NCBI GenBank assembly: GCA_003576845.1 | Contig: QEVJ01000027.1 | Span: 1 to 49,429, forward strand | Origin: Planctomycetota bacterium | GTDB taxonomy: Bacteria; Planctomycetota; Planctomycetia; Pirellulales; PLA5 | DNA length: 49,429 bases | Direction of reading: 5' to 3' | Shown here: in pieces, positions 1-46,324 of the stretch | How the letters are laid out: every line of letters begins with the position of its first letter | Position numbering within the stretch: position 1 is the first letter of the stretch | The notes under the pieces: generated by a model | Database searches by the model: none | Seen by the model: only the letters and a program-made list of their open reading frames with translations | What the model was told of the DNA's origin: nothing | Position numbers and translations under genes: made by a program

Positions 1-2279
1 AGCGACTGCGCGAAGCCTTCATTGGCCGTCTCGAACTCGATCATCCCGTCGTTGTCGTCGTCTTTGGCAACGAGAAAGTCGCCGAGATCGAGGACGCCCA
101 GATACGGCACGCTGGCGAGCGCGTCGTTATTGAGCTCATTGAGCCACGCCGCGGTGTTGGCATACGTGCCCGCGTCGACGGTCACTTCATACGGATTTCC
201 GCCGTCGAAGATGACGAAGAACGGCGTGGCGGGAATGGCGGCGCTGGAGGCCACGCCTTGTCCTTCGACGTTGGCTTTCTGCACGAGCCGCGTCTGCAAG
301 TCGTCGAAGACTTGGACGATGTCGATGAGTTCGCCGAAGTTCTCCTTGACGAACGGAATCTCGGCCAGGCCGAGAATGTTCAAGTTGCCGGCCGACGGAC
401 TTCCCGCGGGAGAACCCGCTGGCGGCGATGCGCTGGCCGAGGGATCGTCCGCGGTCAATCCCGGCAGGATGTTCTGAAAGAACGCGCCGAGTCCACCCAG
501 CAGGCCGCGCTGTTCGTCGCCCGCCACGAGCGCCGGCTTTTGGACGTTGACGTGAAAGTGCCCGCCGTGGCCGCTGGAGAACGAGACCGGAACGCCGGTC
601 GTCGTCCACGTTCGCGGGTCGTTGTAGTACACCGAGGCGACCGCGCCGGTTCCTTGGTCGCGGAAGGCGTCGATCTTCGCTTGCTCCGTGGCAAGGACAT
701 ACCCCGGCCCGTCGACGATCAGGTCCTTGATTCCGGCGAGCACGCTTTGCTGGTTCACGGTCGCCGCGGCGTCGGTCGACGTAGCGCCGACGACGTGCGC
801 CACGGCGCCCGCCGGCGCCGCGGCCAGCACCCATGTGCCGCCGCTCGTATACGCGCCGTTACCCACGGAGCCAACCAACTGGAACGTATTGGCCGTGACG
901 TTTGCCACGGCAAAGGCGCCGTTGGCCGCAGTATTCCCGAGCACGCCGGAAATCGTCACTTGCTCGCCGTTCGACAGGCCGTGGCCGTTCGAGGTAATCA
1001 CGATCGGGTTGGCATTCGTCGCGCCGGTCACGCTTCCGCGGAATCGCTTGGCGACGTAATTCGAGCCGACGAGCTGCGCGATGTGGTTGTTCGCCGCGGT
1101 GTCGCCGGCTGCCTTTGCCGCCACATAAGCCGCGCTGGCGATCGAGTTCGTCTTATAGAACGGCGTGCTGCCGGTGTTCGTGCCGACGGTGTCGATGTCG
1201 ATGTCCATGCCCGCTTCGTGCGAAGCGTGCCCCGGCGTGTCGCCGCCGCCCTTGGTCGTCGCGCCGATGAACGGCAGGACGTGCGTCGTGTTGGCGTCGG
1301 CGGCGGTGAGCACGGCCTTCGCCAGGTGCGTCATGTAGTCTTCGGTCGAACCAGCGTTGGTGATGCCCGCGCCGTACGTTACGGGCACCCAGCGTGCAGC
1401 GGCTTCGCTGTTGATCGCGGCATTGGGCGTAGTGCTGTTCTCGTCAACCGTCGTATCCGTCGTGGCCGCGTTGAACACCCCGACCGCGTGCTTCGTCTGG
1501 GCGTTGAGATCTCCGTTTACCGCGAGTAGATTCGCCGCGTTGCCGATCGCGTCGTGATAGCCCAGGTATCGCAGCCGCTGCTGCATCCGGTACGTTTCCA
1601 GCCGCGACGAACCAAACGTGGCTATCTCGCTGCCGACCGACGAATAGCCGTTCTCGGGCGTTACGTCGATCGATACGTTAATGTCGCCGGAGTAGACGAT
1701 TTCGTCGGAATTGTCCGTCGCGTCGATGAAATGCAGGTCGTAGGTCGCGACGTCCGACGTCGAACCGGTCGCCAATACGCCCGGGTTGGTCGAGGGCGTG
1801 ATGATTTGCGGAATGTAGTACAACACGCCACGATCGACGAACAACTCGTTGTCGTCGCTCAAGTAGTTGGCGACGGTATTGCCGAATCCGTCGGTCGCCA
1901 CGGTCCCGGTGACGAACGGGGCCGCGATATCGAACTCGTAGTACCCGAGTAAGGGGTCGATTTCGAGATCGACATCGTCGGCGAGCTCGATCAGATCGCG
2001 GAGGTCGATGCGCGTCACGTCGCCGTAGCGGACCGTTACGTTCAGATCGAGCGGCGTGAGGAGATTCCCCGCGGCGGGAGCGCCGGCCGCGAGAACGTGC
2101 GGCTGATCGGCGTCGAGCGGGCTATGCGCGAGCACGACGCGCTCTTCGAGCCATTCGAGATGCGTTCGCCGCGGAGCGATCTGACGCAACGTGCGCCGCT
2201 CCCGGCCTTGTGACGATTGACGGCGATCCTTGCCACGACCGAACCCGCCCGGGCTTTTGCGAGAGAACATAGTAGCCAT
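1..2279 (-). CDS. LEPR-XLL surface protein with peptidoglycan-binding-like and LAS-type metallopeptidase signatures (3' truncated)
   Basis: The frame is open from the ATG at 2279 to the window edge (about 759 residues visible), so the C-terminus is missing. The N-terminus is Arg-rich with no hydrophobic signal peptide, followed by LEWLEERVVL (residues 41-50), an LEPR-XLL-type motif. Residues about 226-271 (RMQQRLRYLGY, then VNGDLNAQTKHAVGVFN) look like a PG_binding_1 repeat. SHEAGMDIDI (353-362) and GHGGHFHVN (570-578) match the two metal-binding motifs of LAS peptidases such as MepA/M15/M74; likely zinc ligands are H354, D361 and the HFH histidines 574/576. Between them, residues about 412-486 form a module like the repeat annotated as ubiquitin-activating E1 FCCH. 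A murein-directed peptidase is the best guess; activity is inferred. A later in-frame ATG at 2270 is an alternative start. Confidence 0.75.
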   Translation of the reverse strand, partial: MATMFSRKSPGGFGRGKDRRQSSQGRERRTLRQIAPRRTHLEWLEERVVLAHSPLDADQPHVLAAGAPAAGNLLTPLDLNVTVRYGDVTRIDLRDLIELADDVDLEIDPLLGYYEFDIAAPFVTGTVATDGFGNTVANYLSDDNELFVDRGVLYYIPQIITPSTNPGVLATGSTSDVATYDLHFIDATDNSDEIVYSGDINVSIDVTPENGYSSVGSEIATFGSSRLETYRMQQRLRYLGYHDAIGNAANLLAVNGDLNAQTKHAVGVFNAATTDTTVDENSTTPNAAINSEAAARWVPVTYGAGITNAGSTEDYMTHLAKAVLTAADANTTHVLPFIGATTKGGGDTPGHASHEAGMDIDIDTVGTNTGSTPFYKTNSIASAAYVAAKAAGDTAANNHIAQLVGSNYVAKRFRGSVTGATNANPIVITSNGHGLSNGEQVTISGVLGNTAANGAFAVANVTANTFQLVGSVGNGAYTSGGTWVLAAAPAGAVAHVVGATSTDAAATVNQQSVLAGIKDLIVDGPGYVLATEQAKIDAFRDQGTGAVASVYYNDPRTWTTTGVPVSFSSGHGGHFHVNVQKPALVAGDEQRGLLGGLGAFFQNILPGLTADDPSASASPPAGSPAGSPSAGNLNILGLAEIPFVKENFGELIDIVQVFDDLQTRLVQKANVEGQGVASSAAIPATPFFVIFDGGNPYEVTVDAGTYANTAAWLNELNNDALASVPYLGVLDLGDFLVAKDDDNDGMIEFETANEGFAQS

Positions 2280-7043: not shown

Positions 7044-8486
7044 TTACAGCTTGCCCGGCTCGCGGACGCCGCTGCCCTTGCGGTTGGCAAGCGCGTCGCC
7101 GAGGTCGGCGCGTGCGTCTTCGGCGAGCGCGGTAAGCCGGGCGACGACTTCGGGATTGTCCGCGGCGAGGTCGTGCTTCTCGCCGACGTCGGCATCGAGA
7201 TCGTAGAGGACGAGTTCCGTCTTCTGCTCGGAATAGCCGTGCGGTTTGCCGTCGCGGCCCGGCTTGCCCGTAAGCGCGCGGTAGGGATGCGGAAAATGGA
7301 GCTTCCACTTGCCGGCGCGGATGGCGTGCAATTCGCGGCCCCAGTAGAAGTAGTATGCGTCATGCGGCGATTTCGCGTTCTTCTCTCCGGCGAGCAGCGG
7401 CCAGATGTCCTTGCCGTCGATCTTCCGCTCGGGCAGCGGCGCTCCGGCCAGCTTGGCGAGCGTCGGCAACACGTCGATCGTCGCGGCAGTCTCGCTCGAT
7501 GCCGTGCCCGCGGGAATCTTCCCCGGCCACCGCGCGGCGAACGGCACGCGCACGCCGCCTTCCCACGCGGTTCCCTTGCCCTCGCGCAGCGGCCCAGCCG
7601 AACCCGCGTGATTGCCGTACGACAACCACGGCCCATTGTCCGAGGTGAAGATGACGAGCGTGTTGTCGTCGAGGCCGTGTTCCTCGATCGCCGCAAGTAT
7701 CTGCCCGACCGACCAGTCGATCTCTTCGATCACGTCGCCGTATAGCCCGGCCTGCGACTTACCGGCGTGTTTTTCGGAAACGTAAATCGGCACGTGCGGC
7801 ATCGCGTGCGGCACGTAGAGAAAGAACGGCTTGTCCTTGTTCGCCGCAATGAATTTCACCGCGTGCTCCGCGTACCACGTCGTCAGTTGCGATTGATCCG
7901 GATTCTTGTCGACCACCTTCGTGCCCGACAGCAGCGGCAGCTCCGGATAGGTTCCCGGCGGCGCGGCGGGGTGCTTGGGCCACATGTCGTTCGAGTAGGG
8001 CAGGCCGAAGTAGTCGTCGAAGCCGTGATTCGTGGGCAGAAACTTCTCGCGGTGGCCCAAGTGCCACTTGCCGTAGATGGCCGTGGCGTAGCCCCGCGCC
8101 TTGAGCACTTCGGCGAGCGTCGTTTCGTCCGCGTGAATACCGATCTGCGACTGCGGCCCGAGCGCCCCGAGAATCCCGAGGCGATTCGGATAGCACCCGG
8201 TGAGCAGGGCCGTCCGCGACGCGCTACACACGGCCTGAGCGACGTAGAAGCTCGTAAACTTCGCCCCTTCGTTTGCCAGCCGGTCGATGTTGGGAGTGCG
8301 AATCCCCTTCGCCCCGAAACAGCCCACGTCGGCGTAGCCGAGATCGTCGGCGTACACGATCACGAAGTTGGGCAACCGCGCCGCGTCGGCGGCGATCGCT
8401 TGACCGTCGGCGACAAGCCACAACCACGCCCAAACCGCGCACGCGGCCACGAAACGCAGGTTGATCGAGCGAGCAGAGCGACACAT
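7044..8486 (-). CDS. Secreted sulfatase (arylsulfatase A-like, formylglycine type)
   Basis: 480 residues from ATG 8486, with AGGAG about 7 bases upstream; a GTG at 8534 is the alternative. A signal peptide covers residues 1 to about 34. The sulfatase signature CSASR (87-91) fits the C-x-[PA]-[SC]-R rule, so Cys87 should be converted to formylglycine. Other active-site elements are present: DD at 47-48, GKWH at 139-142, SDNG with D283/N284. Length is normal for a single-domain sulfatase. It lies 98 bases downstream of the giant LTD/CotH/dockerin gene on the same strand and may be co-transcribed with it. The likely substrate is a sulfate ester on a polysaccharide, but specificity cannot be read from the sequence. 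Confidence 0.93.
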
Positions 8487-8584
8487 TGCCAGGCTCCTGG
8501 GCGAAGCGGTTGCGGGTGGGCGAGCAAAACGCACTCGCGCCCGCGGCCAGTATCGACCGGAGGCACGCTCGCGTCAACGTTTCG

Positions 8585-14500: not shown

Positions 14501-15589
14501 ATCGTTCGCGCGGCTGGTGATGCGGTTGTGGCCGATGTTGCCGGAACCGGAGTTTCCCGTGCCCGTGGTTTGGCCGGGATCCTTGATCCAATAGGCGAGG
14601 GTGAAGACGCTCGAGTTGAGGCTGGCGTGGGGCGCGATCGCGACGCGGCTCGCGCCGCCGGAAAAACTCATCGACTTTCCGCTGCCGATGGCGGCCGGCA
14701 CGCTCGTGTCGTAGGTCGCGCCGACGATCGTGCCGTCGTTGACGCCGGTCGCGGAATGGTCGTCCACGTTGTCGTCGAAGTTCCAATACGCGACGAGCGA
14801 CGCAGGCGGCGTGGTCGGCGGCGTGCCGATATTGCCGGCCACGATCGGCGCCTCGCCGCTGGACCAGCTTGCATCGTCGAAGTTGCTTTGCGACCAACTC
14901 GTGCCGAGGTCTGTGCCGGTATCGTCGTACCGCCACGTGGCGTTTTGCTGCACCAGCGTTTGCGACTGCGGCGACAGGTCGACGACGGGAAAGTTGGCGG
15001 CGCCGGGCGTTCCGCCGATTTCGAGACTGGCGGACCAGTTGTCGACGTCGCCGCTACCGGCGTTGGGAGTTCGCTTGGCGAGACTGACGCCCGATCCATC
15101 CGCGGCGAGGGGCCAAGGCTGGTCGTCGGAATAGTCGACCTCGTCCATGACGCGGTCGCTGTTGTTGACGAGCGCAAGCGTTTCGCCGCCATTCGAAAGG
15201 TTGCCCACGTAGGGCCCGAGCGCGCCGGCGAAACCGGCGCTCGCCAGCGCAGCGGGGTCGGCGGCGACGACGAGATAGCCGAACCGCGGGATCGTCGTGC
15301 CGGCGGGGAAGCGATAACTAACGCCCCGGTCGAATCCCCAACCGGAGATGTCCATGTCGACGCCCTGCTGGTTGTGCAGTTCGATGAATTCGAGCGATTC
15401 GTCGCTGCCCGCGGGGTTGTACATGATCTCGTTGAGAACGACGGTGCTGTCGAGCACGTAGCGGTTTTCGAGCGGCTCGATCGTTCGCACGCGGCGGCCG
15501 CGATGCGCGTTCTGCGACGCGCGGCGTGCGGCGGCGCGGAGGTAACGATTGCCGTTGCCGAATGAACCCAGCGAGCGTTTGCCAGACAT
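8585..15589 (-). CDS. Giant LTD / LamG / CotH-kinase / dockerin surface protein (paralog of 32530-40398)
   Basis: 2334 residues. ATG 15589 is preceded by GAGGAG at about 10 bases. Domains in order: Arg-rich N-terminus with IEPLENRYVL (37-46, LEPR-XLL type, no classical signal peptide); lamin-tail domain (about 48-200); galactose-binding-like jelly roll beginning about 205 (TWRYDDTGTDLG), interrupted by LamG (about 265-475) and a second jelly roll, resuming near 680; second LTD (about 790-910); jelly roll (about 950-1117); third LTD (about 1130-1250); carbohydrate-binding-like and Ig-like segments (about 1290-1535); CotH kinase-like region (about 1553-1900, with GIRLKGS and LFPHDMDFSF); fourth LTD (about 2017-2190); dockerin type I with two Ca-binding loops (DVDGDGRVD, DLNGDGAVN, about 2197-2247); and a basic C-terminal tail ending RAQRRIARR. 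It probably acts at the cell surface; the CotH region suggests protein phosphorylation, which is inferred. Confidence 0.9.
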   Translation of the reverse strand: MSGKRSLGSFGNGNRYLRAAARRASQNAHRGRRVRTIEPLENRYVLDSTVVLNEIMYNPAGSDESLEFIELHNQQGVDMDISGWGFDRGVSYRFPAGTTIPRFGYLVVAADPAALASAGFAGALGPYVGNLSNGGETLALVNNSDRVMDEVDYSDDQPWPLAADGSGVSLAKRTPNAGSGDVDNWSASLEIGGTPGAANFPVVDLSPQSQTLVQQNATWRYDDTGTDLGTSWSQSNFDDASWSSGEAPIVAGNIGTPPTTPPASLVAYWNFDDNVDDHSATGVNDGTIVGATYDTSVPAAIGSGKSMSFSGGASRVAIAPHASLNSSVFTLAYWIKDPGQTTGTGNSGSGNIGHNRITSRANDSFETAVSNNAAAGGNSSIKFHSNGWTETTFTTTPNQWIHMAYVANGSMLTIYANGQPVYAASRAISPIGLMNIGTRHTNTTEGFVGNVDDVAMWNIALPQASIQALATGAANPISVSLPITVGSSTATWRLSTETISGGPAGNWDPSGNPPPPAASTFTLVPTATGPLVVPSINTAANSMGVQGIVAQNNVRYYRTTFELPEFGAVSANIRMAVDNGAQVYLNGQLLATEVTFSGDPFLSPYPSITIEENGAVSVTKFDSSAASFTNWNVGTNEIILAVRNTSAESGNAGGFAFRMDVLATTVTGNTIVDLGPTTHYFRHEFDLDAAAAQVSLLELTPLADDGAVYYLNGAEVYRRNMPAGAIGYGTLASTEIGSPAAGLPVSIPSSALVAGRNVLAVEVHQASLDSDDMAMAASLRAVVVPVDPRQPSSLKFDEVASALAPFWIELTNVHSQAIDVGGYEIRSSNEMTAPYVFPSQFVQPGERIIVDAATLGFPVVDNDKLFLFRPGGNAVADAVLMRNRLQGRHPDFGDRWLTPDVPTPGAANSFALHDEIVINEIMYNPRGLLGTPDMPATYQTTSLVSFADTWKFNRSGANLGATWYQTNQPVGGDWQTGQTLIGVESSALPEPLRTTWGDYSQAVTTYYYQKEFTFAGAPAGSELVFRHVIDDGAVFYLNGVELADIGGGSTRFGMPAGAVTSGTFASTSIDNANYSGYIALNPAILNVGTNVLSVEVHQINATSSDTVFGLEMLLREELTPFIPGQPYRDNEQQWIELYNRSQTTVDLTEWEINGVDYEFPMGTTIAPGEYLVVARDVVTLAADYPSIRILGPFAGEIQRGGEKLELRDALDNPADVVEFFDSGRWHEFADGGGSSLELRDPDADNAQAQAWAASDESDQTAWQTVTYRGVATSSSVGPDGQWQEFLLGLLDAGEVLLDDIRVTQNPSSATPIQLIQNGTFQGDSIGALPAAWRLGGTHGSHGKSVVVADPTNPTNKVLRLVATSASEHMFNHIETTLKNGATIATITNGVEYEISYRVKHITGDRQVNTRLYFNRLPKTTIIDAPQLGGTPGAQNSRYETNIGPTHSGLMHSPTVPAAGQTVSVSVDAADPDGVASAVLWYSVNSGTWQSVAMQIGASGRLSGEIPGQAAGAVVQFYVESTDGLGATATFPALGRESRALYQVEDGRAQLSGATALHNFRIVMTPTDANLLHAPTNALSNDRIGATIIYDEGEVFYDAGIRLKGSERGRRQDVRISFNVEFQPDQLFRGVHDNVAVDRSGAGDQFSQKEIIVEHIVTRAGDIPHEYSDLIRAITPRTTHTGTAMLMMARYGDVFLDSQFENGGDGTLFEYELIYYPAGTTDGNPESPKLPYPNADGVVGVSITNLGDDKERYRWPFLIKNNRDADDYSRLIDMAKTFALSGASYSNQINSVIDVDQWLRAFAVGILTGIGDSYFTGAQHNLEVYVRPEDDRVLLFPHDMDFSFSAGATSSLTPNGDLNKMLSIPGNGHHYYGHVQDIVTTTFNATYMTPWINHYDALLPSESFTSFISYISSRASSALSQINAAIPPVSFAITTNGGADHTVNAPTVTLQGTGWVNVRNIRLDGDDTNLPVTWVNNNTWQLTLPIDFGPNPIALEAFDFQGNQIATDSITVTSTISVRPLQDFLRVSELMYHPADETAEELAAGFNDADEFEFIEFQNTSTTETLDLSGVRLIAGVQFDFATASVATLAPGERLLLVKNEAAFAFRYGAGLNVAGSYGGQLDNAGETLTIVDGNNAIIQSFTYDDNGPDWHPTTDGDGYSLVIVDVLGETSQWSVGSAWRPSGQIGGSPGTEDQTGVEGDVDGDGRVDLVDLGILQRSLGTASGATPEMGDLNGDGAVNGADAAILARNFGRGSAPPSPPAAASVVITGTTRRASGPASLGKETLQATARRRVAASARLRLDTAHVDRALGELTGDSSSTTDTPLRAQRRIARR

Positions 15590-32529: not shown

Positions 32530-35500
32530 ATGAAGCCGCGGCGCAAGCAACGCCATTGGACGCTGGAAACGCTCGAAACCCGGTGCGTGCTCGACAGCAC
32601 GGTGGTGCTGAACGAGATCGCGTACAACCCGCCGGGGAGCGGCGAGTCGCTCGAATGGATCGAGCTTCACAATCAGATGGCCGTCAACGTCGACATCTCG
32701 AAGTGGCAGTTGTCGGACGGCGTTTCGTTTACGTTTCCCGCCGGAACGGTCGTGCCGGGCGGCGGGTATCTCGTGGTTGCCGCGAATCCGGATGCGCTCG
32801 CGACGGCCGGTATTTTCGCAGGCGCGCTGGGTCCGTGGACCGGCGCGCTGGCCAACGGCGGCGAACAGATCGAGCTGCGCAACAACAGCGATCGCGTGAT
32901 GGACGCGGTCGAGTACGGCGACAACGGCGAGTGGTCGCCGGCGGCCGATGGCGGCGGAGTGACGCTGGCGAAGATCGATCCGCTCTCGGCGAGCGGTCCA
33001 GCGGCGAACTGGCGCGTGAGCCGCGAAGTCGGCGGCACACCGGGCGCGGAGAACTTTCCACCGCCGGGCGGAATCGTGCTGCCGGCCGGCGTCGTTTCAT
33101 ATTGGAGCTTCGACGAGGTCGCCGGTCCCGTGCTCGACCGCGGCGATAGTAACCACGGCGCGCTGGCGGCGGGCGCGACGCGAACGGCAGGACTCGTCGG
33201 CAGCGGCGCAGTGACGTTTGCCGATTCGAGCGCGGCCTACGTGAACGTCGGTCCTGGCACCAGCAACAACTTCTCCGTTTCCACGGGCGTGACCGTCGAA
33301 GCGGTGATCGAGTCGAACTGGGACGGCGTGGGGACGGCGACGGTTTTCCGCAAGGGCGAGAACGTCGGCGCGCCGCTGTGGTCGTATTGGTCGTTCGACG
33401 AATCGAACGGCACGCCGGCCAATGCGAACGTGCTCGACGCGATCGGGGGCAATCACGGCACGCTCGCGGGGACGGCGGTTCACACGACGGGCATTCGCGG
33501 CTTGGGGGCCGGGCGATTCAACAACGTGGCGGCCGAAGGCGTGGGGCTGGGGTCCGGGGCGATGAACGCCACGGCGGGCATCACGATCGCCGCGTGGATC
33601 AAGCCGGAGTGGAACGGGGCCACGTTCAACGCCGACACGATTTACTACAAGAACGACACGACAAACCGGATTTCGCTGGAGTTCCAGCGCGATTCGTCGA
33701 ACAGTCTGGCCGATCCGCCGGTGGCCGGCAGCGCGCCGCAGGTGTTGTCGTTCGCGCTCAACACGAGCGGCTCGGTGCGAGAACTCGATATGCCGCTGGG
33801 CGTTAATCTCGCGGCGCTGCCGAACGGGACGGCGAACGCGGGCACGATCTATCTCACGGCGCCCGGCGGCGCGCTGGGACCGAACGACGTCGTGCTGCGG
33901 GACGGGAGCGCGCATCACGTGGCCGCGACTTACGACGTCGCGTCCGGCGAAAAGGCGATCTGGATCGACGGCGTCAAACGGTGGTTCCGGGCGTATGCGG
34001 CGGGCACGGCGATGGCCGTCGGCGGCAGCGCCGGGGCCGCAATCGGCAATTCGCAGCCGGGCCTGTCGCGGGCATTCACCGGCGTGATCGACGAAGTGGC
34101 GGTCTGGGGCGACGCGCTGTCGGCGGCGCAGATCGCGGCGCTCGTTTCCTCGGCGTCGCCGGTGACGATTCCGTCGGGCGGCGTGAACAACAGCCTCGCG
34201 CTCGAGTTCCAGAACGACGGGAACAACGCGGCGGCGAATCCGCCGGTCGCGGCGGGACCCGTGTTGTCGTTCGGGCTCAACGTCGGCGGCGTGTATCAGG
34301 AACTCGACATGCCGCTCGACGGCGTGGGCACGCGGCCGACGCTCGCGGAGCTTCAGGACGGCAATCCGCACCACATCGCGGCCACGTACAACAGCGCGAC
34401 GGGCGCGAAGTCGATCTGGATCGACGGCGTGGAACGGTTCACGGTGAATCTTGCGCCGGGCGCAACGATCAACAGCGCCGGCGACGGGCTGGCGACGATC
34501 GGGAACCGCGGGGCGCTGGGCGATTCGCCGCTGGTCGGGACGATCGACGAAGTGGCGTTCTGGAACAAGGCCCTGCCGAGCACCGAAGTACAACAACACT
34601 CGGCGAGCGTGCTCGCGGGAAGCAACTATTTCGCCGAACTCAACGCCGGCGCCGCGCCGCTGGCATTTAATGAGACCGCGCCGGGCGTGGCGGGCTTTTG
34701 GGCTGAATTGGTCAATTTTGGCTCGTCGCCGGTGCAGCTTGGAGGGCACGTGATCGTCGGGTCGGAGTCGCCGGCACATCGTTACGTGCTGCCGGCGGGT
34801 ACGCTCGCGGCGGGGGCGTTCTTGACGATTAGCGAGGCACAACTCGGCTTTACGCCGGTCGATACGGAGCGGTTGTTTCTGTACAACCCGGCGGAGAATC
34901 TCGTGCTCGACGCGGTGGCGGTCGACGACGAGCTGCGCGGCCGAGAGCCGCAGGCGACCGGACCGTGGTTGTTCCCGGACGTCGCGACGCCGGGTGCGGC
35001 GAACAGTTTTGCGCTCAACGACGGCGTAGTGATCAACGAGATCATGTACCACGCGCAGCCGACGTATGCCCAGGAAGGTCAGCAGCAAACGTCGCAGCCC
35101 ATTTCGCTCGGCGGGACGTGGCAATACGAGCAGTCGGACACGGACCTCGGCGCGACGAATTGGAAGGACGTGGGCTTCACGCCCACCGGTTGGTCGACGG
35201 GTCAGGCGAGCTTCGGCGCGAGCACGGGCGGAGCGAGCTATCAGAGCATCGTCGCGGCCGACGCGCCGCTTGCCTATTGGCGGCTCGGCGACGCGGGGCC
35301 GAGCGTCGCGGATTCGTCTGGCAACGGCCGCAATGGCACGGCCGACGCGGGCGTGTTGTTCGGGCAGACCAGCTTGCTTTCGGACCTGACGAACAACGCG
35401 GTCAACACGGTCGGCACGGCGCGGATTACCGTGCCGGGGTTCGAGAAGTTTCCGGCCGGCTCGACGGGGTACTCGGTCGAATACTGGATCGAGGTGCTCT

Positions 35501-38500
35501 CGCCGCCGACGAGTTTCAGCAATATCGTGGGCGACGGCGAGTCGGGCGGCGATTTCTACTTGATGAACTACCTGACGAGCGGCGGGCAAATCCGACCGCA
35601 CTTCAACGGGGCCGGCACCGTTTCGACCGACAGCAACGCGACGCTGCAAGTCGGCCAGACGTATCACGTCGTGACCACCTGGGATCGCACGACCGGCATC
35701 GGCTCGATTTACATCAACGGCGCGCTCGACAAGGCGATCAGCGTCGGTACGGGCGCCCCGGTCAACTCCAATAACCCAATCTACATTGGCCGCGACAATC
35801 GCGAGCCGGGGAGCAGCTTTCTGCTCGACGAAGTGGCGATCTACAACCGGCCGCTGAACCAAACGGAGGTTTCCGAGCACTTCAACGCGGGCGGCGGCGT
35901 CGCGTTCGCCACGACGCTCGATCTCGGGCCGACGACGTATTACTTCCGCAAGGAGTTCAACTTCGCGGGCAATCCGGCCGCGACCGAGCTGTCGCTCCGC
36001 ACGTATATCGACGACGGCGCGGTGATCTATCTCAACGGGCAGGAGATTCATCGCCAGAACATGCCGGCCGGCGCGATCGGGCACGAGACGTTTGCCGTCA
36101 CGGCCGTCAGTTCGCCGTCGCTGGGAACGACGATCGCCGTTCCCGCGGGAATTCTGCAAAGCGGGACGAACGTGCTGGCCGTTGAAGTGCATCAGGTCGA
36201 CAGCGGCGACAACGACGTGGCGTTCGACGCGCTCTTGACGGCGATGGAGGATATTGCCTCGTCGACGGACTTCATCGAGTCGGACGAGGAGTGGATCGAG
36301 CTTTACAACCGGTCGGCGGCAGAGGTCGATCTGTCAGGTTGGCATATCGAAGACGCGATCAACTACACTTTCCCGGCGGGGACGACGATCGTGCCGGGCG
36401 AATATCTGGTCCTGGCTCGCGATCCGGTCGCGCTGGCGGCGGCACATCCGGGCATTCGGATCGTCGGCGGTTATTCGGGACAACTGTCGAATGGCGGCGA
36501 GCGGATTACGCTCAAGGACGCAAGCAAGAACCCGGCGGACGTGGTGACGTATGCCGACGAGGGGCGCTGGCCGATTCATGCCGACGGCGGCGGTGCGAGC
36601 TTGGAACTGCGCGATCCGCACGCGGACAATTCGCTCGCCGAAGCTTGGGCGGCGAGCGACGAGCGCGGCAAGTCCGACTGGCGAACGTACACGTATCGGG
36701 GCGTGGCGGCGGTTCCGCCGAATTCGCCGAATCCGACGACGTACAACGAGTTCGTGCTCACGCTGCTCGACGCGGGCGAAGTGCTGCTCGACGACATCAG
36801 CGTTCGCGAAAACCCGAACGGGGCGAACACGCAGTTCATCCAGAACGGCTCGTTCCAGGGCGACGCGCTCGGCGCGGCGCCGGCGACGTGGCGGATCGCG
36901 GGCACGCATCGCGGAACGGTGATCGCCGATCCCGATAACGGGGCGAACAAGGTCTTACGGCTCGTGTCGACGGGGCAAGGTGAGCATCTGGCGAATCACG
37001 CCGAGACGACGCTCAAGGCCGGGGCGACGTTCGAGACGGTTTTGCTCGGCACGGAATACGAGATTTCGTTCAAGGCGAAGTGGATCGCCGGTTCGCCGCA
37101 ACTCAACTCGCGGCTGTTCTTCAATCTGCTGCCGAAGACGACGATACTCGACACTCCGGCATCGGGCGGAACGCCGGGCGCGCGGAACTCGACGCTCGCC
37201 GGTGCGACGGAAGCGGCGGCGAACGTCGGGCCGACGTATGCGAATCTGGCGGCGACGCCGGTCGTGCCCGCGGCGAACGAGCCGGTTGTGGTGTCGGTCG
37301 AAGCGGCCGATCCCGACGGCGTGCAGTCGATGACGCTGCGGTACTCGGTCAACGGCGGCGCGCTACAGAGCGTGGCGATGGCGCTCTCCGGCGGCGCGTA
37401 TCGCGGCGCGATTCCGGGTCAAGCGGCCAATGCCGTCGTGCAGTTTTTCGTCGAGGGGCGGGATGCGCTCAATGCGCTCTCGTCGTTTCCCGCGGCGGGG
37501 GCGGCGTCGCGGGCGCTGTACAAGGTCGGCACGACGGCGACTTCGGCGAGCTTGCACAACTTGCAAATCGTCGTCACGGCGGCCGACGCGGCGGTTCTCG
37601 GCGCGTCGACGAACTTGATGAGCAACCAGCCGGTCGGAGCGACGGTCGTATACGAAGGCAAGGCGTACTACGACGTGGGCGTGCGGCTTAAGGGGAGCGA
37701 ACACGGGCGGCCGGACCTTAATCGCCGCGGGTTTTTCCTCGTTTTTCCGCCGGACAACTTGTTCCGCGGCGTACACGGCTCCGTCGGCATCGACCGTTCC
37801 GGCGGTTGGCGCTATGGGCGGCAGAACGGACAGGAAGAGATCGTCATCCACCACTTCATCAACGCGGCCGGCGGCGTGCCCGGCTCGTACAACGATCTCG
37901 TGAACGTCGAAGCGCCGGGCGTGACGACTGGGACGGCGATCTTGCAGATGGGGCGGTTCACCAACACGTTCCTCGATTCTCAGTACGAAAACGGCAGCGA
38001 CGGCACGCGGTGGGAATACGAACTCATCTACACGATGGGCACGAGCGCGGGCGTGGAAAGTCCGAAGGTGGCGGCGGAAGGGCCGTCGGTGTTCGGCACG
38101 CCGATTCGCGACAAGGGCGAAGACAAGGAATCGTATCGCAACAACTTCCTGATCAAAAACAACACGGACCGCGACGATTTCGAGCCGATCGACGTGCTGG
38201 CCGAGGCGTTCGGGCAGCCGGCGGGAAGCGCGGCCTATCACGCGGCGGCGCAGCAGGCGATCGACGTCGACCAGTGGCTGCGGGCGTTTGCGGCCGTGGC
38301 GCTCGCCGCGGTGAGCGACAGCTACTTCAACAACTCGAACGCCCACAACGCGACGTTCTACGAGCGGCCGAGCGACGGCAAGGTGCTGCTCTTCCCGCAG
38401 GACATGGATTTTGCGTTCGTCAACGGAGCGACGAGCTCGCTGGTGGCGAACAGCGATTTGGCGAACCTGCTCACGCTGCCCCAGAACAATCACTTCTATC

Positions 38501-40398
38501 TCGGCCACGTTCAGGACATCGTGACGACGAGCTTCAACGCGGCGTACATGGGGACGTGGGTCAATCACTACAACAGCCTGTTGCCGGGGCAGAACATCAC
38601 GGACCTGACGAGCTTCATCAACACGCGGGCGAACTTCGCGCTATCGCAGATGCCGGCGCAGGTCGCGTTTAGCGTGGCGGCGAATCCGCCCGCGCCGGTG
38701 ACGACGACGCTGGTCGGCGAGTTCGCGGCGGCGACGGCGTTCGTGCCGAGCGGCGACATCGGGACGGCGTGGACCGGCGTGGGATTCGACGACGCGAGCT
38801 GGACGAGCGGCGACACGGGCGTGGGGTACGAGACGAGCCCGGCCGATTATCAGAATCTGCTCGGTCTCAACGTCGGTTCGATGCTCAATACGAACGGTTC
38901 GGCTTATGTCCGCGTGCCGTTCGACTTTTCCGGAAGCGGGGCGGATTTCGACAATCTCAAGCTGCGGATGCGGTACGACGACGGGTTCGTGGCGTACTTG
39001 AACGGGGTGCGCGTCGCGGCGGCGAATGCGCCGGCGACGCTGGCGTGGAACTCGCTGTCTACGCAGTCGCACGACGACGTGAACGCGGTCGTGCGGCAGG
39101 ATTTCGACATCTCGGCGTTCAAGGACCTTCTCGTCGACGGCGAGAACGTGCTCGCGTTCCAGGTGCTCAACCAGGCGCTCAACAGCAGCGACTTGCTGTT
39201 GCTGCCGGAATTGGTCGGCGAGACGATTCCGGACACGGGCGGGGAAGTCGTCGTGCCCGGGCCGACGGCGACGATCGGCGGGCAAGGTTGGGTGAACGTC
39301 CGCGAGATTCGGTTCGCGGGCGATTCCGCGCCGGTGAATACGACGTGGCTTTCGACGACGGCCTGGCAGGCGACGATCCCCGTGCAGCCGGGCACGCACG
39401 ACTACACGTTCGAGGCTTATGACTTCCAGGGGAACTTCATCGGTTCCGACACGATCGCGATTACGAGCACCGAGCCGCAGCCGCTGCTCAACCACCTGCG
39501 CATCGGCGAGCTCATGTATCATCCGGCCGATCCGTCGACGGCCGAGATCGCGGCGGGTTTCAACGACGCCGACGATTTCGAGTTTGTCGAACTGGTCAAC
39601 ACGAGCACGACCGAAACGCTGCAACTCGACGGCGTGACGATTTCGGCGGGCATTTCCTTTACGTTCGGCAATGTGTCGCTGCCGCCGGGCGGGCGCGTGG
39701 TGGTGGTCGAGGACCTGGCGGCGTTTGCCCAGCGGTATGGCGACGCGATTGTGCCCGTCGGGCAATACACGGGGCGGCTCAACAACGCGGGCGAGCAACT
39801 GCGGCTGGCCGATGCGAACGGCAGCACGATTTTGGACTTCGTGTACGACGACACGGGCACCGGCTGGCATCCGACGACGGACGGCCAGGGGTATTCGCTG
39901 GTGATCGTGGACGAGAGCGGGCCGGCTGCGAGTTGGAACGACGGCGCGGCGTGGCGGCCGAGTTTCGCGATCGGCGGCTCGCCGGGGTTGCCGGATGAGC
40001 CTGTGGGTTTGCTGGGCGACTTCGACGGCGACGGGCGGATCGGTCTGGCGGATCTGGCGATCCTGCAAGCGCACTTGGGGACGGCCAGCGGGGCGACGTC
40101 GCTTACGGGCGATATGAACGGCGACGGGGCGGTGAATCGGCTGGACGCGGCGGAGTTTGCGCGGCGGTTTGGGCAGGGCGGGGCGATACCTTCGGCGCCG
40201 GCGGCGGTTGTGGCCCGACAGAGGGCGGTGTCGGCGAACACGGCGCCATCGTTAAACGCCCAGCGGCGGCGGGTCGACCGGCAAGCGGCAGCGGTGGATC
40301 GGGCGATCGACTCGCTTTCGGCGGACTACGCGGGATCGTCGGCGGCCGGGGGATTGAGAAGGGCAATGAGCGCGGGTAAGAGGCGTATTGCAAGATGA
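32530..40398 (+). CDS. Giant LTD / LamG / CotH-kinase / dockerin surface protein (paralog of 8585-15589)
   Basis: 2622 residues from ATG 32530 (gggaccgcc upstream). Order: Arg/Lys-rich N-terminus with LETLETRCVL (12-21), no classical signal peptide; LTD (about 24-180); LamG first half (about 178-282), a whole second LamG inserted (283-553), LamG second half (554-700); LTD-like (about 709-830); jelly roll (from about 854) interrupted by another LamG (about 903-1124), resuming with TTYYFRKEF; LTD (about 1255-1370); binding-like and Ig-like segments (to about 1665); CotH kinase-like region (about 1670-2040; VRLKGSEHGRP, LFPQDMDFAF); inserted jelly roll (about 2057-2236); LTD (about 2320-2490); dockerin type I (DFDGDGRIG, DMNGDGAVN, about 2496-2545); tail ending KRRIAR. 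Extra modules relative to the paralog explain most of its added length. Confidence 0.9.
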   Translation: MKPRRKQRHWTLETLETRCVLDSTVVLNEIAYNPPGSGESLEWIELHNQMAVNVDISKWQLSDGVSFTFPAGTVVPGGGYLVVAANPDALATAGIFAGALGPWTGALANGGEQIELRNNSDRVMDAVEYGDNGEWSPAADGGGVTLAKIDPLSASGPAANWRVSREVGGTPGAENFPPPGGIVLPAGVVSYWSFDEVAGPVLDRGDSNHGALAAGATRTAGLVGSGAVTFADSSAAYVNVGPGTSNNFSVSTGVTVEAVIESNWDGVGTATVFRKGENVGAPLWSYWSFDESNGTPANANVLDAIGGNHGTLAGTAVHTTGIRGLGAGRFNNVAAEGVGLGSGAMNATAGITIAAWIKPEWNGATFNADTIYYKNDTTNRISLEFQRDSSNSLADPPVAGSAPQVLSFALNTSGSVRELDMPLGVNLAALPNGTANAGTIYLTAPGGALGPNDVVLRDGSAHHVAATYDVASGEKAIWIDGVKRWFRAYAAGTAMAVGGSAGAAIGNSQPGLSRAFTGVIDEVAVWGDALSAAQIAALVSSASPVTIPSGGVNNSLALEFQNDGNNAAANPPVAAGPVLSFGLNVGGVYQELDMPLDGVGTRPTLAELQDGNPHHIAATYNSATGAKSIWIDGVERFTVNLAPGATINSAGDGLATIGNRGALGDSPLVGTIDEVAFWNKALPSTEVQQHSASVLAGSNYFAELNAGAAPLAFNETAPGVAGFWAELVNFGSSPVQLGGHVIVGSESPAHRYVLPAGTLAAGAFLTISEAQLGFTPVDTERLFLYNPAENLVLDAVAVDDELRGREPQATGPWLFPDVATPGAANSFALNDGVVINEIMYHAQPTYAQEGQQQTSQPISLGGTWQYEQSDTDLGATNWKDVGFTPTGWSTGQASFGASTGGASYQSIVAADAPLAYWRLGDAGPSVADSSGNGRNGTADAGVLFGQTSLLSDLTNNAVNTVGTARITVPGFEKFPAGSTGYSVEYWIEVLSPPTSFSNIVGDGESGGDFYLMNYLTSGGQIRPHFNGAGTVSTDSNATLQVGQTYHVVTTWDRTTGIGSIYINGALDKAISVGTGAPVNSNNPIYIGRDNREPGSSFLLDEVAIYNRPLNQTEVSEHFNAGGGVAFATTLDLGPTTYYFRKEFNFAGNPAATELSLRTYIDDGAVIYLNGQEIHRQNMPAGAIGHETFAVTAVSSPSLGTTIAVPAGILQSGTNVLAVEVHQVDSGDNDVAFDALLTAMEDIASSTDFIESDEEWIELYNRSAAEVDLSGWHIEDAINYTFPAGTTIVPGEYLVLARDPVALAAAHPGIRIVGGYSGQLSNGGERITLKDASKNPADVVTYADEGRWPIHADGGGASLELRDPHADNSLAEAWAASDERGKSDWRTYTYRGVAAVPPNSPNPTTYNEFVLTLLDAGEVLLDDISVRENPNGANTQFIQNGSFQGDALGAAPATWRIAGTHRGTVIADPDNGANKVLRLVSTGQGEHLANHAETTLKAGATFETVLLGTEYEISFKAKWIAGSPQLNSRLFFNLLPKTTILDTPASGGTPGARNSTLAGATEAAANVGPTYANLAATPVVPAANEPVVVSVEAADPDGVQSMTLRYSVNGGALQSVAMALSGGAYRGAIPGQAANAVVQFFVEGRDALNALSSFPAAGAASRALYKVGTTATSASLHNLQIVVTAADAAVLGASTNLMSNQPVGATVVYEGKAYYDVGVRLKGSEHGRPDLNRRGFFLVFPPDNLFRGVHGSVGIDRSGGWRYGRQNGQEEIVIHHFINAAGGVPGSYNDLVNVEAPGVTTGTAILQMGRFTNTFLDSQYENGSDGTRWEYELIYTMGTSAGVESPKVAAEGPSVFGTPIRDKGEDKESYRNNFLIKNNTDRDDFEPIDVLAEAFGQPAGSAAYHAAAQQAIDVDQWLRAFAAVALAAVSDSYFNNSNAHNATFYERPSDGKVLLFPQDMDFAFVNGATSSLVANSDLANLLTLPQNNHFYLGHVQDIVTTSFNAAYMGTWVNHYNSLLPGQNITDLTSFINTRANFALSQMPAQVAFSVAANPPAPVTTTLVGEFAAATAFVPSGDIGTAWTGVGFDDASWTSGDTGVGYETSPADYQNLLGLNVGSMLNTNGSAYVRVPFDFSGSGADFDNLKLRMRYDDGFVAYLNGVRVAAANAPATLAWNSLSTQSHDDVNAVVRQDFDISAFKDLLVDGENVLAFQVLNQALNSSDLLLLPELVGETIPDTGGEVVVPGPTATIGGQGWVNVREIRFAGDSAPVNTTWLSTTAWQATIPVQPGTHDYTFEAYDFQGNFIGSDTIAITSTEPQPLLNHLRIGELMYHPADPSTAEIAAGFNDADDFEFVELVNTSTTETLQLDGVTISAGISFTFGNVSLPPGGRVVVVEDLAAFAQRYGDAIVPVGQYTGRLNNAGEQLRLADANGSTILDFVYDDTGTGWHPTTDGQGYSLVIVDESGPAASWNDGAAWRPSFAIGGSPGLPDEPVGLLGDFDGDGRIGLADLAILQAHLGTASGATSLTGDMNGDGAVNRLDAAEFARRFGQGGAIPSAPAAVVARQRAVSANTAPSLNAQRRRVDRQAAAVDRAIDSLSADYAGSSAAGGLRRAMSAGKRRIAR

Positions 40399-41374: not shown

Positions 41375-44300
41375 ATGCAATTCTCTTATCGGTCGAAGCA
41401 ACAGCCGGCGCGCCGCGCGCCGCAACGTCGTTTTGCGCGCTCGCCGCGCACTGTGCGCCGCGCGCTCGGGATGGAGCCGCTCGAATCGCGGGCCTTGCTC
41501 GCCGTGGTGAATCTCGTCACGGAGACGACGCCGTCGAAGGGCATCGTCGTCACGCAAGCGATCTACGACGACGTCGGCACCGACTGGAACGGCAGCGATC
41601 CGTCGTTCGACGACACGACGTGGGTCGGGTCGGCGGTCGGCGGACCGAACGGGATCGGCGCGCCGATTACGACGGGCGGCAAGTACGCGAATTTCGCGAG
41701 CATCAGTTCGGCGGCGATGGCCTTCGCGACGAACACGTCGTTCCTGCGCATTCCATTCCAGGTGTCCGGCGCCTCGGCGTTTTCGAAGCTGACGCTGAAT
41801 ATGCGGTTCGACGACGGGTTCATTGCGTATCTCAACGGCCAGGAAGTGGCGCGGCAGAACGTTGCTCCCGACTATCCGGCGTGGAACGCACCTGCGACGG
41901 CGTTCATCAGCCCCGCCGACGCGAGCGCGACGTTTACGACGTTCGACGTATCGAGCAGCGTGGGCGCGCTCCAGGACGGGACGAACATTCTGGCGATTCG
42001 CGGTTTCGATCGTCCCCAAGTCGGCAATTTCCCGTCGAGCCAGGATTTCTTGGTTCAGGCGACGCTGGTGGGCGAAAAGCCCGATGCGGTGATCACCGCG
42101 AACGACGATGCCGTTTCGTATCGGACGGACGCGGCCGACCCGGTGATCAACGTCCTGGCGAACGACACGGCGGGCAGCTATCCGATCGACCCGGCCTCGG
42201 TCCAGATCGTTCAACAGCCGACGGGCGGCACGGTGACGGTCAACGCCAATGGCACGATTAGGTACAGCGAGAACACGAATCCGCAGTTCGCGGGCGTGGA
42301 TACGTTTACGTACCGCGTGCGCGATACGAATCCGGCGCCGACGCCGGGCGGGACGACGACGCCCACGCCCGTTGTTGGCGCCAACGCAGCGCATCGCCGG
42401 CTCGTTCCCACCGCTGCCCAGGCTGCGACTTGGACGGGTTCGGGAACGTTCGACGACAGCACGTGGCTCGTGGGCCAGGGTGGCGTGGGCTACGACACGG
42501 ATGTGGCGGTCGACTACGAGCCGTATATTCAAAACGGGCTGGTGACGATGCAGAACGTCAACGCTTCCGTATACGCGCGATACCCGTTCACGCTGGCGGA
42601 TCCCACGAAGGTCGTTGGGCTTCGGCTGCAAATGCGGTATGAAGACGGATTCGTGGCGTGGATCAACGGCGTCGAGGTGGCGCGCGGCGGCGCGCCGACG
42701 CCGGCATTGTGGAACTCGCTGGCGAACGGAGGCGCGCGTAACGAGGCCATGGCCATCGCGCAAACCGAGTTTGTCGTCGATTTGGCTGCGGCAGGTTTGG
42801 TTCTCAAGGCCGGCCCTGGGGCGAATATCCTGGCAATTCAAGGTCTCAACGACACGTTGGGAAGTTCCGACTTGCTGATTCAGCCGGAATTGATCGCCGA
42901 CGTTGGGTCGACGGGGCTGTGGTCGAACGAGGCGACGGTGACGGTGAGCGTGACGGGTCCGGGGCCGGTGGCGGCGGACGATTTTCCGGAGACGATCAAC
43001 GTAATCGAGCAGCAGGACGGCGGCGTGACGGTGGACGTGCTCGCCAACGACACGCCGGGGTTTAGCGGCGAACCGATTCGGCCGGGGACGGTGGAAGTTA
43101 CCGTGCCGCCGGCGAATGGATCGGTGATCGTCGATGCGGCGACGGGCGCGATCAACTATCAGCCGGACACGGGTTTCTGGGGCGACGACGTGTTCACGTA
43201 CACGGTGCGCGACGCGGACATGGTTGGCGGCTCAGAGACGAGGGATTTGATTCCCGCGGGAGATATGTGGAAGTATCTCGATAACGGGACGGACCAGGGC
43301 ACCGCCTGGACGGGCACATCGTTCAACGACGCGTCTTGGGCTACCGGGCGTGCGGAGCTTGGATACGGCGACGGGGATGAAGCGACGATCGTCGCTTGCG
43401 TCACCGCCGGAACGCCTTGTGCCGGCAACCCGCCGAACAAATTCATAACGACCTATTTTCGCCGCACGTTCGACCTGGCGGACGCGAGCGCCGTGCAGTC
43501 GCTGGACGTGCGTTTGGAATATGACGATGGCGGCATTGTTTATATTAACGGCACCGAAGTCGCCCGCGTGAATATGCCGGCGGGGGCGCCAACCTACACG
43601 ACGCCCGCCACCGGCGCCGCCGACTACGCGCGTACTCCGACGTCGATCGCCATGCTGACGGGCGCTCAACTAGCGCCGCTACGCGACGGCACGAACGTCG
43701 TGGCCGTGGAAATACACCAGGGTAACGGCACGAGCAGCGACATGTCGTTCGATTTCCAACTCGTGGCGAATCTCTCGACGCCAACTGGCAACGTCTCCAA
43801 CCCCGCCCAGGTTCATATTCACGTCAACGCTCCGCCGGTGGCTGGGAACGACACGATTCAGGTCGGGCCATTTGGGACAATGGGCTCGGTTCCGAGTTCG
43901 ATCACGTTCGATCCTTACGTGAACGACAGCGACCCGGACAACTCGCCGGGACAGTCGCCGGGTCAGGTGGGGATCAACCGGACGCAGACGCTCATTACGC
44001 AGCAACCGCCCCCCGGCGACGGCCTGGTCTCGGTCAATCCGACGACGGGGCTGATTACGTACACGGCGCAAGCGGGCATGAGGAATCCGGAGACGGTGAC
44101 GTTCCGGTATCAAGTGTTCGACTATCAGAACGCGCACTCGAATGAAGCGACGGTGACGGTGAACCTGGTGGTGACGCCGCCGACGGCGGTCGACGACGCG
44201 GTTGCCACGCCGGAAGGGCAGACGGTGGTGATCAACGTGCTGGCGAACGACATCACGCGGGATTTGCTGCGGTCCGACGGGAGCATCGTGCCGACGCAGC

Positions 44301-46324
44301 CCGCCAATGGGACGGTGACGCTCAACACGGCGAACAACACGCTCGTGTACACGCCGAACCCGGGCTTCCGCGATCAGTTCGACACGTTCACGTACACGGT
44401 CTCCGACCTGGCCGGCAACCGCTCCGCGCCGGCGACGGTGACGGTGGATGTGTTTTCGCTGGCGCGGACGGCCGGGGACGGATTCTCGATTCCGACCGGT
44501 CAGGACTCGGTGACGATTCCGATCGCCGATATGCTGGTGAACGACTATTGGCCGACCGCTTCGTTCCAGCCGGTGGTGGTGATCGTTCCCAATAGCTGGA
44601 CGAACGGGTTGCAGCCGGTGATCAACGTGGTCGGCGGCGTGCAGCAATCGATCACGTTTACCAAGGCGACGGGCGCCGCGGGTGTCGGCGGGTTCAGCTA
44701 TTACCTGGCCGACGGCGTGCCCAATCCGACGCGGCCGAACTCGAACACGTCGCGGGTGGACGTCGCGCTTACGACGGTGACGGTCAGCGGCAAGGTGTAC
44801 GTCGACGTCAATCAGAACGGAACGTATGAATTCGGCGAGCGTCTGATACCCGATGCGACGATCGTGCTCCGACGGGCGGGCAACCCGCAATTCGTGCGGA
44901 CGACGATGACGAATTCGTTCGGGGAATACTCGTTCGCGTCGACGGCGGACGGCGTTTTGCCGCCGGACACGTACACGATCACGCAGATTCAGCCCGCGTT
45001 GTATCTGGACTTCACGACGGGTGCGGTGAATTCGTATACGGTGGCGCTGTCGGCGCCGGAGAACCCCGGTTTCGACTTCCGCGAGTGGACCGTCAACCCG
45101 CAGTTCTTCGTGGCGCTGGTCAGTTACGGCGGCGGGTTTTTGGCTTCGCAGCAACCGGTGTCGCTGTCGGCCGGGTCGATCGTCGTGCCGTACGACGTCG
45201 GCTGGAACGGCACGTTCGCGGCGAAGGCGACGTACAACCCGGCGCTCGGCGACGTGTCGGTGAAGCTGTACAACTCGGGCGGAGCGCTGCTCGCGAATTC
45301 GGCGACGAGCGGCGGTTCGACGCCGGGGAACTCGGTGATCAACTACTCGGCCAGCCCGTCGCAGAAGCTGGTGCTGGTCGTTTCGGGGACGAACCCGAAC
45401 GTGTTGGTGGACGCGCCGAGCCTGGCGACGACGTCGGGGGACACGACGCCGCCGTTCGTGTACAGCACGGCGCTTGCGAGCACGCGGTGGTCGAGCGGGT
45501 TCGCGGAGAATCTCGCCGAGCACTTCATGGGGACCGGCGGCTACAACGTGTCGGCGGGCGAGACGCTGCCGTGGCAGAACCTGGACCGGATCACGATGCG
45601 GTTCACCGAGCCGGTCGCGGTCACGCAGGGCGATCTGCGGCTGTGGGGCGTCGACGTGGCCGACTATCCGCAGACGGTCGGCGTGCAGAGCTTTTCCTAC
45701 GACCCGCTGTCGTTCACGGCGACGTGGACGCTCAGCGCGCCGATCGCGGCGGATCAGCTTCGCGTCGGATTGTCGGACGCCGTGCGCGACGTGTGGGGGA
45801 ACCGCGTCGGCGGCACGGGCTATTCGATGCTGTTCAATGTGCTGCCGGGAGCGATTCCGGGGACGGGTTCGACGGCGGGCGACGCGATCGCCGCGATGAT
45901 GTCGCGGCAGTTCGCGAGCGTCGGGCAGGCGCGGTACTCGCCGTTCTACGATCTCGACGGGAGCGGGACGATCAACTTCGTGGACGCGATCGCGCTGCGG
46001 AACGCGCTCGGTTCGCAGCTCCCGCTGGGGACGCCGGGCGGCGGTTCGACGAGCACGCCTTCGCCGGAAGCGCCGGCGGCGGTGGTCGTGTCGGCGGGGC
46101 GCGAGAGCGACGCCGTGCGGCGGCGCGACGCGGATACGCCGCTGGCCGCGAGCCGGGCGGTGGTGCGAGCGACGCGGGCCGCGGCGGTCGATGCCGTTGT
46201 CGATGCGGCCGTGAGCGCGGATGCGGGGGCGGGCGGTGGGGCGAGTTCGCTCAGTGCGCTGCGAGCGCGACGGGCGGCGCGATCGGCGGAGCGGGTGCTG
46301 GCGGGGCTGGATGGGTCGCTGTAG
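41375..46324 (+). CDS. LEPR-XLL multi-domain cadherin/Ig-like protein with interrupted repeats and dockerin-like end
   Basis: 1649 residues from ATG 41375; the frame is open to 41273, but the Arg-rich N-terminus and MEPLESRALL (33-42, LEPR-XLL type) fit this start. The ribosome site is weak. Order: jelly roll 1 (about 45-240); cadherin/Ig-like repeat 1 (about 240-320 and 515-528) split by jelly roll 2 (about 339-510); repeat 2 (about 530-620 and 803-818) split by jelly roll 3 (about 624-802); uninterrupted repeats 3 and 4 (about 820-1030) and a divergent fifth (to about 1140); SdrD B-like/Cna-B domain (about 1140-1235, VYVDVNQNGTYEFGERLIPD); two further beta-rich segments; a dockerin-like end with one good Ca loop (DLDGSGTIN, about 1525); and an Ala/Arg-rich tail. 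Probably a cell-surface adhesin or wall protein. Confidence 0.88.
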   Translation: MQFSYRSKQQPARRAPQRRFARSPRTVRRALGMEPLESRALLAVVNLVTETTPSKGIVVTQAIYDDVGTDWNGSDPSFDDTTWVGSAVGGPNGIGAPITTGGKYANFASISSAAMAFATNTSFLRIPFQVSGASAFSKLTLNMRFDDGFIAYLNGQEVARQNVAPDYPAWNAPATAFISPADASATFTTFDVSSSVGALQDGTNILAIRGFDRPQVGNFPSSQDFLVQATLVGEKPDAVITANDDAVSYRTDAADPVINVLANDTAGSYPIDPASVQIVQQPTGGTVTVNANGTIRYSENTNPQFAGVDTFTYRVRDTNPAPTPGGTTTPTPVVGANAAHRRLVPTAAQAATWTGSGTFDDSTWLVGQGGVGYDTDVAVDYEPYIQNGLVTMQNVNASVYARYPFTLADPTKVVGLRLQMRYEDGFVAWINGVEVARGGAPTPALWNSLANGGARNEAMAIAQTEFVVDLAAAGLVLKAGPGANILAIQGLNDTLGSSDLLIQPELIADVGSTGLWSNEATVTVSVTGPGPVAADDFPETINVIEQQDGGVTVDVLANDTPGFSGEPIRPGTVEVTVPPANGSVIVDAATGAINYQPDTGFWGDDVFTYTVRDADMVGGSETRDLIPAGDMWKYLDNGTDQGTAWTGTSFNDASWATGRAELGYGDGDEATIVACVTAGTPCAGNPPNKFITTYFRRTFDLADASAVQSLDVRLEYDDGGIVYINGTEVARVNMPAGAPTYTTPATGAADYARTPTSIAMLTGAQLAPLRDGTNVVAVEIHQGNGTSSDMSFDFQLVANLSTPTGNVSNPAQVHIHVNAPPVAGNDTIQVGPFGTMGSVPSSITFDPYVNDSDPDNSPGQSPGQVGINRTQTLITQQPPPGDGLVSVNPTTGLITYTAQAGMRNPETVTFRYQVFDYQNAHSNEATVTVNLVVTPPTAVDDAVATPEGQTVVINVLANDITRDLLRSDGSIVPTQPANGTVTLNTANNTLVYTPNPGFRDQFDTFTYTVSDLAGNRSAPATVTVDVFSLARTAGDGFSIPTGQDSVTIPIADMLVNDYWPTASFQPVVVIVPNSWTNGLQPVINVVGGVQQSITFTKATGAAGVGGFSYYLADGVPNPTRPNSNTSRVDVALTTVTVSGKVYVDVNQNGTYEFGERLIPDATIVLRRAGNPQFVRTTMTNSFGEYSFASTADGVLPPDTYTITQIQPALYLDFTTGAVNSYTVALSAPENPGFDFREWTVNPQFFVALVSYGGGFLASQQPVSLSAGSIVVPYDVGWNGTFAAKATYNPALGDVSVKLYNSGGALLANSATSGGSTPGNSVINYSASPSQKLVLVVSGTNPNVLVDAPSLATTSGDTTPPFVYSTALASTRWSSGFAENLAEHFMGTGGYNVSAGETLPWQNLDRITMRFTEPVAVTQGDLRLWGVDVADYPQTVGVQSFSYDPLSFTATWTLSAPIAADQLRVGLSDAVRDVWGNRVGGTGYSMLFNVLPGAIPGTGSTAGDAIAAMMSRQFASVGQARYSPFYDLDGSGTINFVDAIALRNALGSQLPLGTPGGGSTSTPSPEAPAAVVVSAGRESDAVRRRDADTPLAASRAVVRATRAAAVDAVVDAAVSADAGAGGGASSLSALRARRAARSAERVLAGLDGSL

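Follow-up and report, generated by a model that had tools for sequence, protein, structure and literature searches.

RTX adhesins are known to carry split Ig-like domains that project ligand-binding modules sideways (SBD-UKD in FrhA, a CBM in AhLap and PA14 in MpIBP; PMC10865825, PMC12077191). The PA14 domain of the Marinomonas primoryensis adhesin binds sugar and itself lies within a split Ig-like domain, while in the split domain of FrhA a single strand of about 12 residues precedes the exit of the guest (PMC10865825). This nested-module arrangement has so far been described mainly in RTX adhesins. For fibrillar adhesins, the part of the published account drawn on here names Big_9 among the stalk domains and treats adhesive and stalk domains as separate modules along the chain (PMC8286594). 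A literature search, mostly outside subscription journals, found no account of nested guests in planctomycete Big_9 repeats.

The window, by which we mean the whole stretch of 49,429 nucleotides that was analysed, encodes a multidomain surface-type protein of about 1,650 residues, hereafter the 41375 protein. Four repeats of Big_9, a bacterial Ig-type, cadherin-like domain, and an SdrD_B-like region were identified with Pfam, which also gave a weak match to dockerin. The Big_9 (PF17963) match reached 149 bits against a gathering score of 23.6, and each repeat was also matched separately. Tandem stalk domains are present as in fibrillar adhesins, and the likeness to the portion of that scheme cited above (PMC8286594) extends to the combination of repeated stalks with modules, whose adhesive role is putative here; two modules of the 41375 protein, however, are nested in stalk repeats. 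The first-pass annotation had proposed that repeats 1 and 2 hold a jelly roll of about 170 residues between strands F and G, and that repeats 3 and 4 are plain. All of the stretches concerned were found in place, and motif positions confirmed that repeats 3 and 4 carry no insert. A third jelly roll, absent from that annotation, precedes repeat 1. The features are as follows.

41375..46324, plus strand: CDS of the multidomain surface-type 41375 protein (ORF list, Pfam and motif positions; likely start ATG 41375)
41471-41503, plus strand: LEP-type N-terminal motif MEPLESRALLA (motif position)
41507..42076, plus strand: N-terminal jelly roll, free-standing, outside any repeat (jelly-roll HMM; no Big_9 part upstream)
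42092..42334, plus strand: host repeat 1 (Big_9), strands A to F (Big_9 match ends at profile position 80; AF2 pLDDT about 90-97)
42305-42325, plus strand: strand F of repeat 1, FTYRVRD (motif position)
42371..42901, plus strand: guest jelly roll 1, in the F-G loop of repeat 1 (jelly-roll HMM; fold match to GH2 N-terminal domains, Z about 10)
42917..42952, plus strand: strand G of host repeat 1, WSNEATVTVSVT (13.5 bits; model strand 281-287, block pLDDT 97; superposition over 1..288)
42923-42946, plus strand: SNEATVTV within strand G of repeat 1 (motif position)
42968..43225, plus strand: host repeat 2 (Big_9), strands A to F (Big_9 match ends at profile position 78-81)
43193-43213, plus strand: strand F of repeat 2, FTYTVRD (motif position)
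43238..43771, plus strand: guest jelly roll 2, in the F-G loop of repeat 2 (HMM and trees; GH2 N-terminal fold match, Z up to 12.9)
43790..43828, plus strand: strand G of host repeat 2, NVSNPAQVHIHVN (12.7 bits; model strand 281-287, block pLDDT 88)
43796-43825, plus strand: SNPAQVHIHV within strand G of repeat 2 (motif position)
43838..44167, plus strand: repeat 3, Big_9, divergent, unsplit (Big_9 HMM and motif positions; SNEATVTV ends at 44161)
44174..44452, plus strand: repeat 4, Big_9, unsplit (full-length profile match 1-91; FTYTVSD...APATVTVDV at 44387-44452)

In repeats 1 and 2 the Big_9 match ended at profile position 78-81 of 89-91, where the jelly roll begins, and across the genome the Big_9 matches preceding F-G guests ended at model positions 76-84 of 91. 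Using a jelly-roll HMM and a Big_9 HMM, both built from this genome, we found that each of the genome's 12 F-G jelly rolls is directly followed by strand G (10.0-16.9 bits), while none of the 63 jelly rolls without a Big_9 neighbour exceeded 8.0 bits for this strand. Eight of the 12 scores lay above the best of 400 random segments of the same length, drawn from jelly-roll proteins without Big_9 (Mann-Whitney p = 3e-8). These strand-specific scores were used instead of scores for the rejoined host pieces: when the jelly roll was excised and the flanks were scored with the Big_9 HMM, few gains over permuted pairs were seen because linker residues remained in. Alignment of the two units with unsplit Big_9 repeats agreed with the original reading, as in an unguided MAFFT run ten unsplit repeats had their strand G placed beyond the guest.

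AF2 models of both units were calculated from alignments of the window and related loci retrieved by homology search only; these alignments included unsplit repeats gapped over the guest, so the models do not give evidence wholly independent of the sequence argument. Unit 1 was modelled with a mean pLDDT of 86.0; values were near 90-97 in the host strands and 97 in strand 281-287 past the guest, with a weaker linker before that strand. The mean for unit 2 was 80.8, with strand G (281-287) at 88. The pTM was only 0.67-0.68 in the two models, so the orientation of the guests is not reliably predicted. With VIA-align, 83 residues spanning 1..288 of the unit 1 model superposed on the contiguous residues 69-153 of 8fwc (Z 10.7, rmsd 1.9 Å), an Ig domain of about 85 contiguous residues in the collar sheath protein of phage Milano. 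The same comparison with 8fwm gave an rmsd of 1.5, and several neck and collar sheath chains of this phage matched 82-83 residues of unit 1 (1..288 or 2..288; Z 10.4-10.7, rmsd 1.5-1.9 Å) over 84-85 contiguous residues (69-153 or 70-153). Since a contiguous Ig domain is matched over 1..288 while the guest lies at about 87-273, the pieces flanking guest 1 form one domain. The SNEATVTV strand of the unit 1 model thus belongs with the YRVRD strand and not to a separate domain, the outcome that would have spoken against the first-pass annotation. The 41375 protein contains an Ig-like fold split into two chain pieces around a guest. For unit 2, all the matches listed covered only the guest and none was informative on the host.

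That annotation had also suggested that the F-G loop is a preferred port, and the genome bears this out more widely: about 13 Big_9 repeats are split at F-G and about 30 at a second loop, alongside about 39 that are intact in the scanned part of the genome. The second port is the single loop after strand A of Big_9 (profile 11-25), and no clear inserts were seen at other Big_9 places in the stretches scanned in this genome. Thirty repeats of the scanned part start without strand A, which lies farther upstream, on the other side of one or two inserted domains. This upstream strand scored above the best of 400 null segments in 26 of the 30 cases (p = 1e-19) and, in 21 of the 24 repeats having a previous repeat, began 6-9 residues past it; the spacing in unbroken arrays is 3-10 residues. 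Cargo at the second port comprised jelly rolls (one or two at a time), LamG (7e-20), a propeller of the LDL-receptor type and domains without a name, with weaker matches to a C-type-lectin-like domain (2.5e-4, just below cut-off) and an L-type lectin (0.004). Guests occur there alone or in series, examples being L034 519-867, L033 917-1332, L045 398-727 and L052 456-789 (ORF residues). The F-G port can also hold a domain other than a jelly roll, as at residues 140-339 of L060, where the guest matched no Pfam family. Both ports are present in a second species as well, and an orthologue of the 41375 protein (L071) is carried by MAG OFTM264, taken to be a genome of the same genus. In samples of the order and the phylum, matches outside the genus mostly covered the guest, with few candidates scored per genome. 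One apparent split outside the genus (G359, model positions 1-194) turned out to be an intact repeat of Big_9 with a jelly roll after it. In a different planctomycete class, a possible F-G split holding another guest was seen at residues 742-1010 of L096 (ORF 7173-12149, Phycisphaerales MAG).

The anatomy of units 1 and 2 recalls the split Ig-like domains of RTX adhesins in that the stalk domain is discontinuous in sequence, a whole guest buds out with its ends adjacent, and the guest fold is similar (PA14-type). The place of exit differs: in FrhA and in the second split domain of AhLap the chain leaves after the first strand, whereas in units 1 and 2 it leaves after strand F, and only the second port of this genome, after strand A (profile 11-25), is like that of FrhA. 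Unlike those of RTX adhesins, the splits recur here in successive stalk repeats and across many proteins. No RTX beta-roll or RTX repeats were found in Pfam or NCBIfam scans of the 41375 protein. We do not claim membership of the RTX adhesins for this protein; the resemblance is strong for anatomy and moderate for function.

As modelled, the guest is a jelly-roll (galactose-binding-like) fold of the GH2-N/PA14 type. Structural comparison of the AF2 units 1 and 2 gave Z 10.9-12.9 against GH2 N-terminal jelly rolls, and Foldseek matched the PA14 domain of the Marinomonas primoryensis adhesin (6x8a, E 2.9e-4). Unlike GH2-N, CBM67 and PA14 domains, the guests of the 41375 protein matched no family at cut-off in Pfam and NCBIfam scans; neither guests 1 and 2 nor ten guest-type sequences gave a Pfam match to PA14 (PF07691). 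A search of the PDB with the sequence of one guest likewise gave no match, and the rhamnosidase 3w5m was reached by profile only: a ten-guest profile matched it over domain D with E 8e-9 for the whole sequence, the CBM67 match being weak per domain (17 and 15 bits). The Asp-Asp pair of the guests aligns with Asp179-Asn180 of this domain, a likeness to the CBM67 of SaRha78A, and in the original CBM67 paper Asp179 and Asn180 are reported to bind the sugar. Domain D of 3w5m is the calcium-dependent carbohydrate-binding module CBM67 (PMC4690510). Where PA14 domains bind sugar, the calcium in contact with it is held by an Asp-cis-Asp pair (PMC6650083). Asp-Asp was present at the motif site in 98 of 104 guests, and Asp-Asp-Gly is nearly invariant. 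It is replaced by Glu-Asp(-Gly) in guest 1 of the 41375 protein and of its two close paralogs, a change that may reflect an altered ligand or metal site; the orthologue L071 retains Asp-Asp. The jelly roll forms a large family in this genome, with 105 matches to guest 1, mostly outside Big_9 repeats and without a Pfam or NCBIfam name. Within the window, a neighbouring protein of 2,622 residues (32530-40398; LTD, LamG, CotH-like and dockerin domains) has two to three jelly rolls of the same family, none within a Big_9 repeat, and a large ORF on the minus strand (8585-15589) lacks Big_9 repeats and has two to four matches to the jelly roll.

Other readings of the split and of its guests can be weighed against these data. 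Strand G is only about 12 residues long and its sequence signal is short, so the SNxAxVxV stretch might be thought part of the guest or of a linker, the repeats being merely truncated. We hold this to be very improbable: the stretch is absent after jelly rolls without a Big_9 neighbour (0/63), the superposition over 1..288 falls on one Ig domain, and jelly rolls at the second port are not followed by strand G and instead carry the missing first strand on their far side. That the guest is a passive spacer or a shield against proteases, with no ligand, would agree with the loss of the first Asp of the pair in guest 1, and seems unlikely given that the fold and the near-invariant Asp-Asp-Gly agree with calcium-dependent sugar-binding modules and that guests of the second port include lectin-like families.

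The recurrence of the same insertion point had been read as the duplication of a host-plus-guest unit. The hosts do look like close relatives, but the proposal is not supported for the guests, which are unrelated at the subfamily level. In a tree of 104 jelly rolls, guests 1 and 2 lie on opposite sides of a 95* branch and are not closest relatives; guest 1 forms a group with its counterparts in the paralogs on contigs C128 and C228 (100*), and guest 2 is placed near the second guests of these two proteins. Constraining guests 1 and 2 to one clade cost 90 log-likelihood units (AU p 0.036), and the two are 28% identical. In the host tree, built on 79 columns only, hosts 1 and 2 cluster with their counterparts (one clade not rejected, AU p 0.83), and unsplit repeats fall within the same cluster. 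Guest 1 is 93% identical in amino acids and 84% in nucleotides between the window and C128, compared with 53% and 61% for host 1, and fourfold silent-site differences were fewer in the guest (40/97) than in the host (170/290; Fisher p 0.003). The conservation of guest 1 fits exchange or conversion of the guest alone, although stronger selection could explain part of it. Because two subfamilies occupy F-G and guest 1 is far more conserved between paralogs than its host, the guests have probably been exchanged as modules.

Simple duplication of the whole unit is disfavoured, and the duplication reading is incorrect or at best half-correct. A tandem duplication in situ would account for the identical port and order and for the close relationship of the two hosts, but we consider it improbable with guests that belong to separate subfamilies across a starred branch, differ at most positions and resist being joined in one clade. 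Since the hosts cluster and the guests do not, two histories are left. In the first, duplication of a split host would have been followed by replacement of one guest with a jelly roll from another subfamily, a cassette being exchanged in a fixed socket. We give this close to an even chance: it is what clustering in the hosts alone would look like, and the excess of guest over host conservation, with its fewer silent differences, is expected if guests move alone, yet the host tree is short and includes unsplit repeats inside the cluster, and selection on the guest protein could account for part of the excess. Independent entry of the guests into related but separate unsplit repeats has a substantial, though less than even, chance in our view. 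F-G hosts are also found at distant positions in the host tree (L060, L061), so the port has probably been filled more than once, and the starred branches of the guest tree require at least two changes of the F-G label; against this, the hosts of the window family cluster, and for them a single origin of the split is simpler.

On balance, we think it likely that the 41375 protein is a fibrillar adhesin-like surface protein in which Big_9 stalk repeats act as split domains bearing sugar-binding-like jelly rolls. In repeats 1 and 2 the chain exits at the hairpin between strands F and G of the Ig fold, forms a complete jelly roll of the galactose-binding-like kind as a guest, and then comes back to add strand G, which completes the Big_9 repeat. 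With both guest ends meeting at the stalk, the far end of the guest would be directed off the fibre axis and positioned for a ligand, most likely a carbohydrate, with a calcium ion probably held by the conserved Asp-Asp pair. While the split, its port, the fold of the guest, the use of two ports across the genome and the separate subfamilies of the two guests are shown by these data, we infer that the protein is located at the surface, projects its guests laterally, binds a ligand and uses calcium. More generally, the chances are about equal for and against the Big_9 repeat being a two-socket chassis, into whose two loops unrelated folds are placed singly or serially and swapped between paralogous fibres with the stalk undisturbed.

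Standard domain scans call the split repeats truncated and leave the guests nameless, so that the extent of nested adhesin architecture in planctomycetes is easily overlooked. In a broad survey, insertion sites were spread evenly over the thirds of host domains (32/34/34%; PMC13114784), whereas here inserts of several folds concentrate at two loops of one repeat family. This two-loop set is a natural test set for the features that make a loop an acceptable port, and the architecture offers a route to predicting ligand-binding modules in the giant proteins of planctomycetes.
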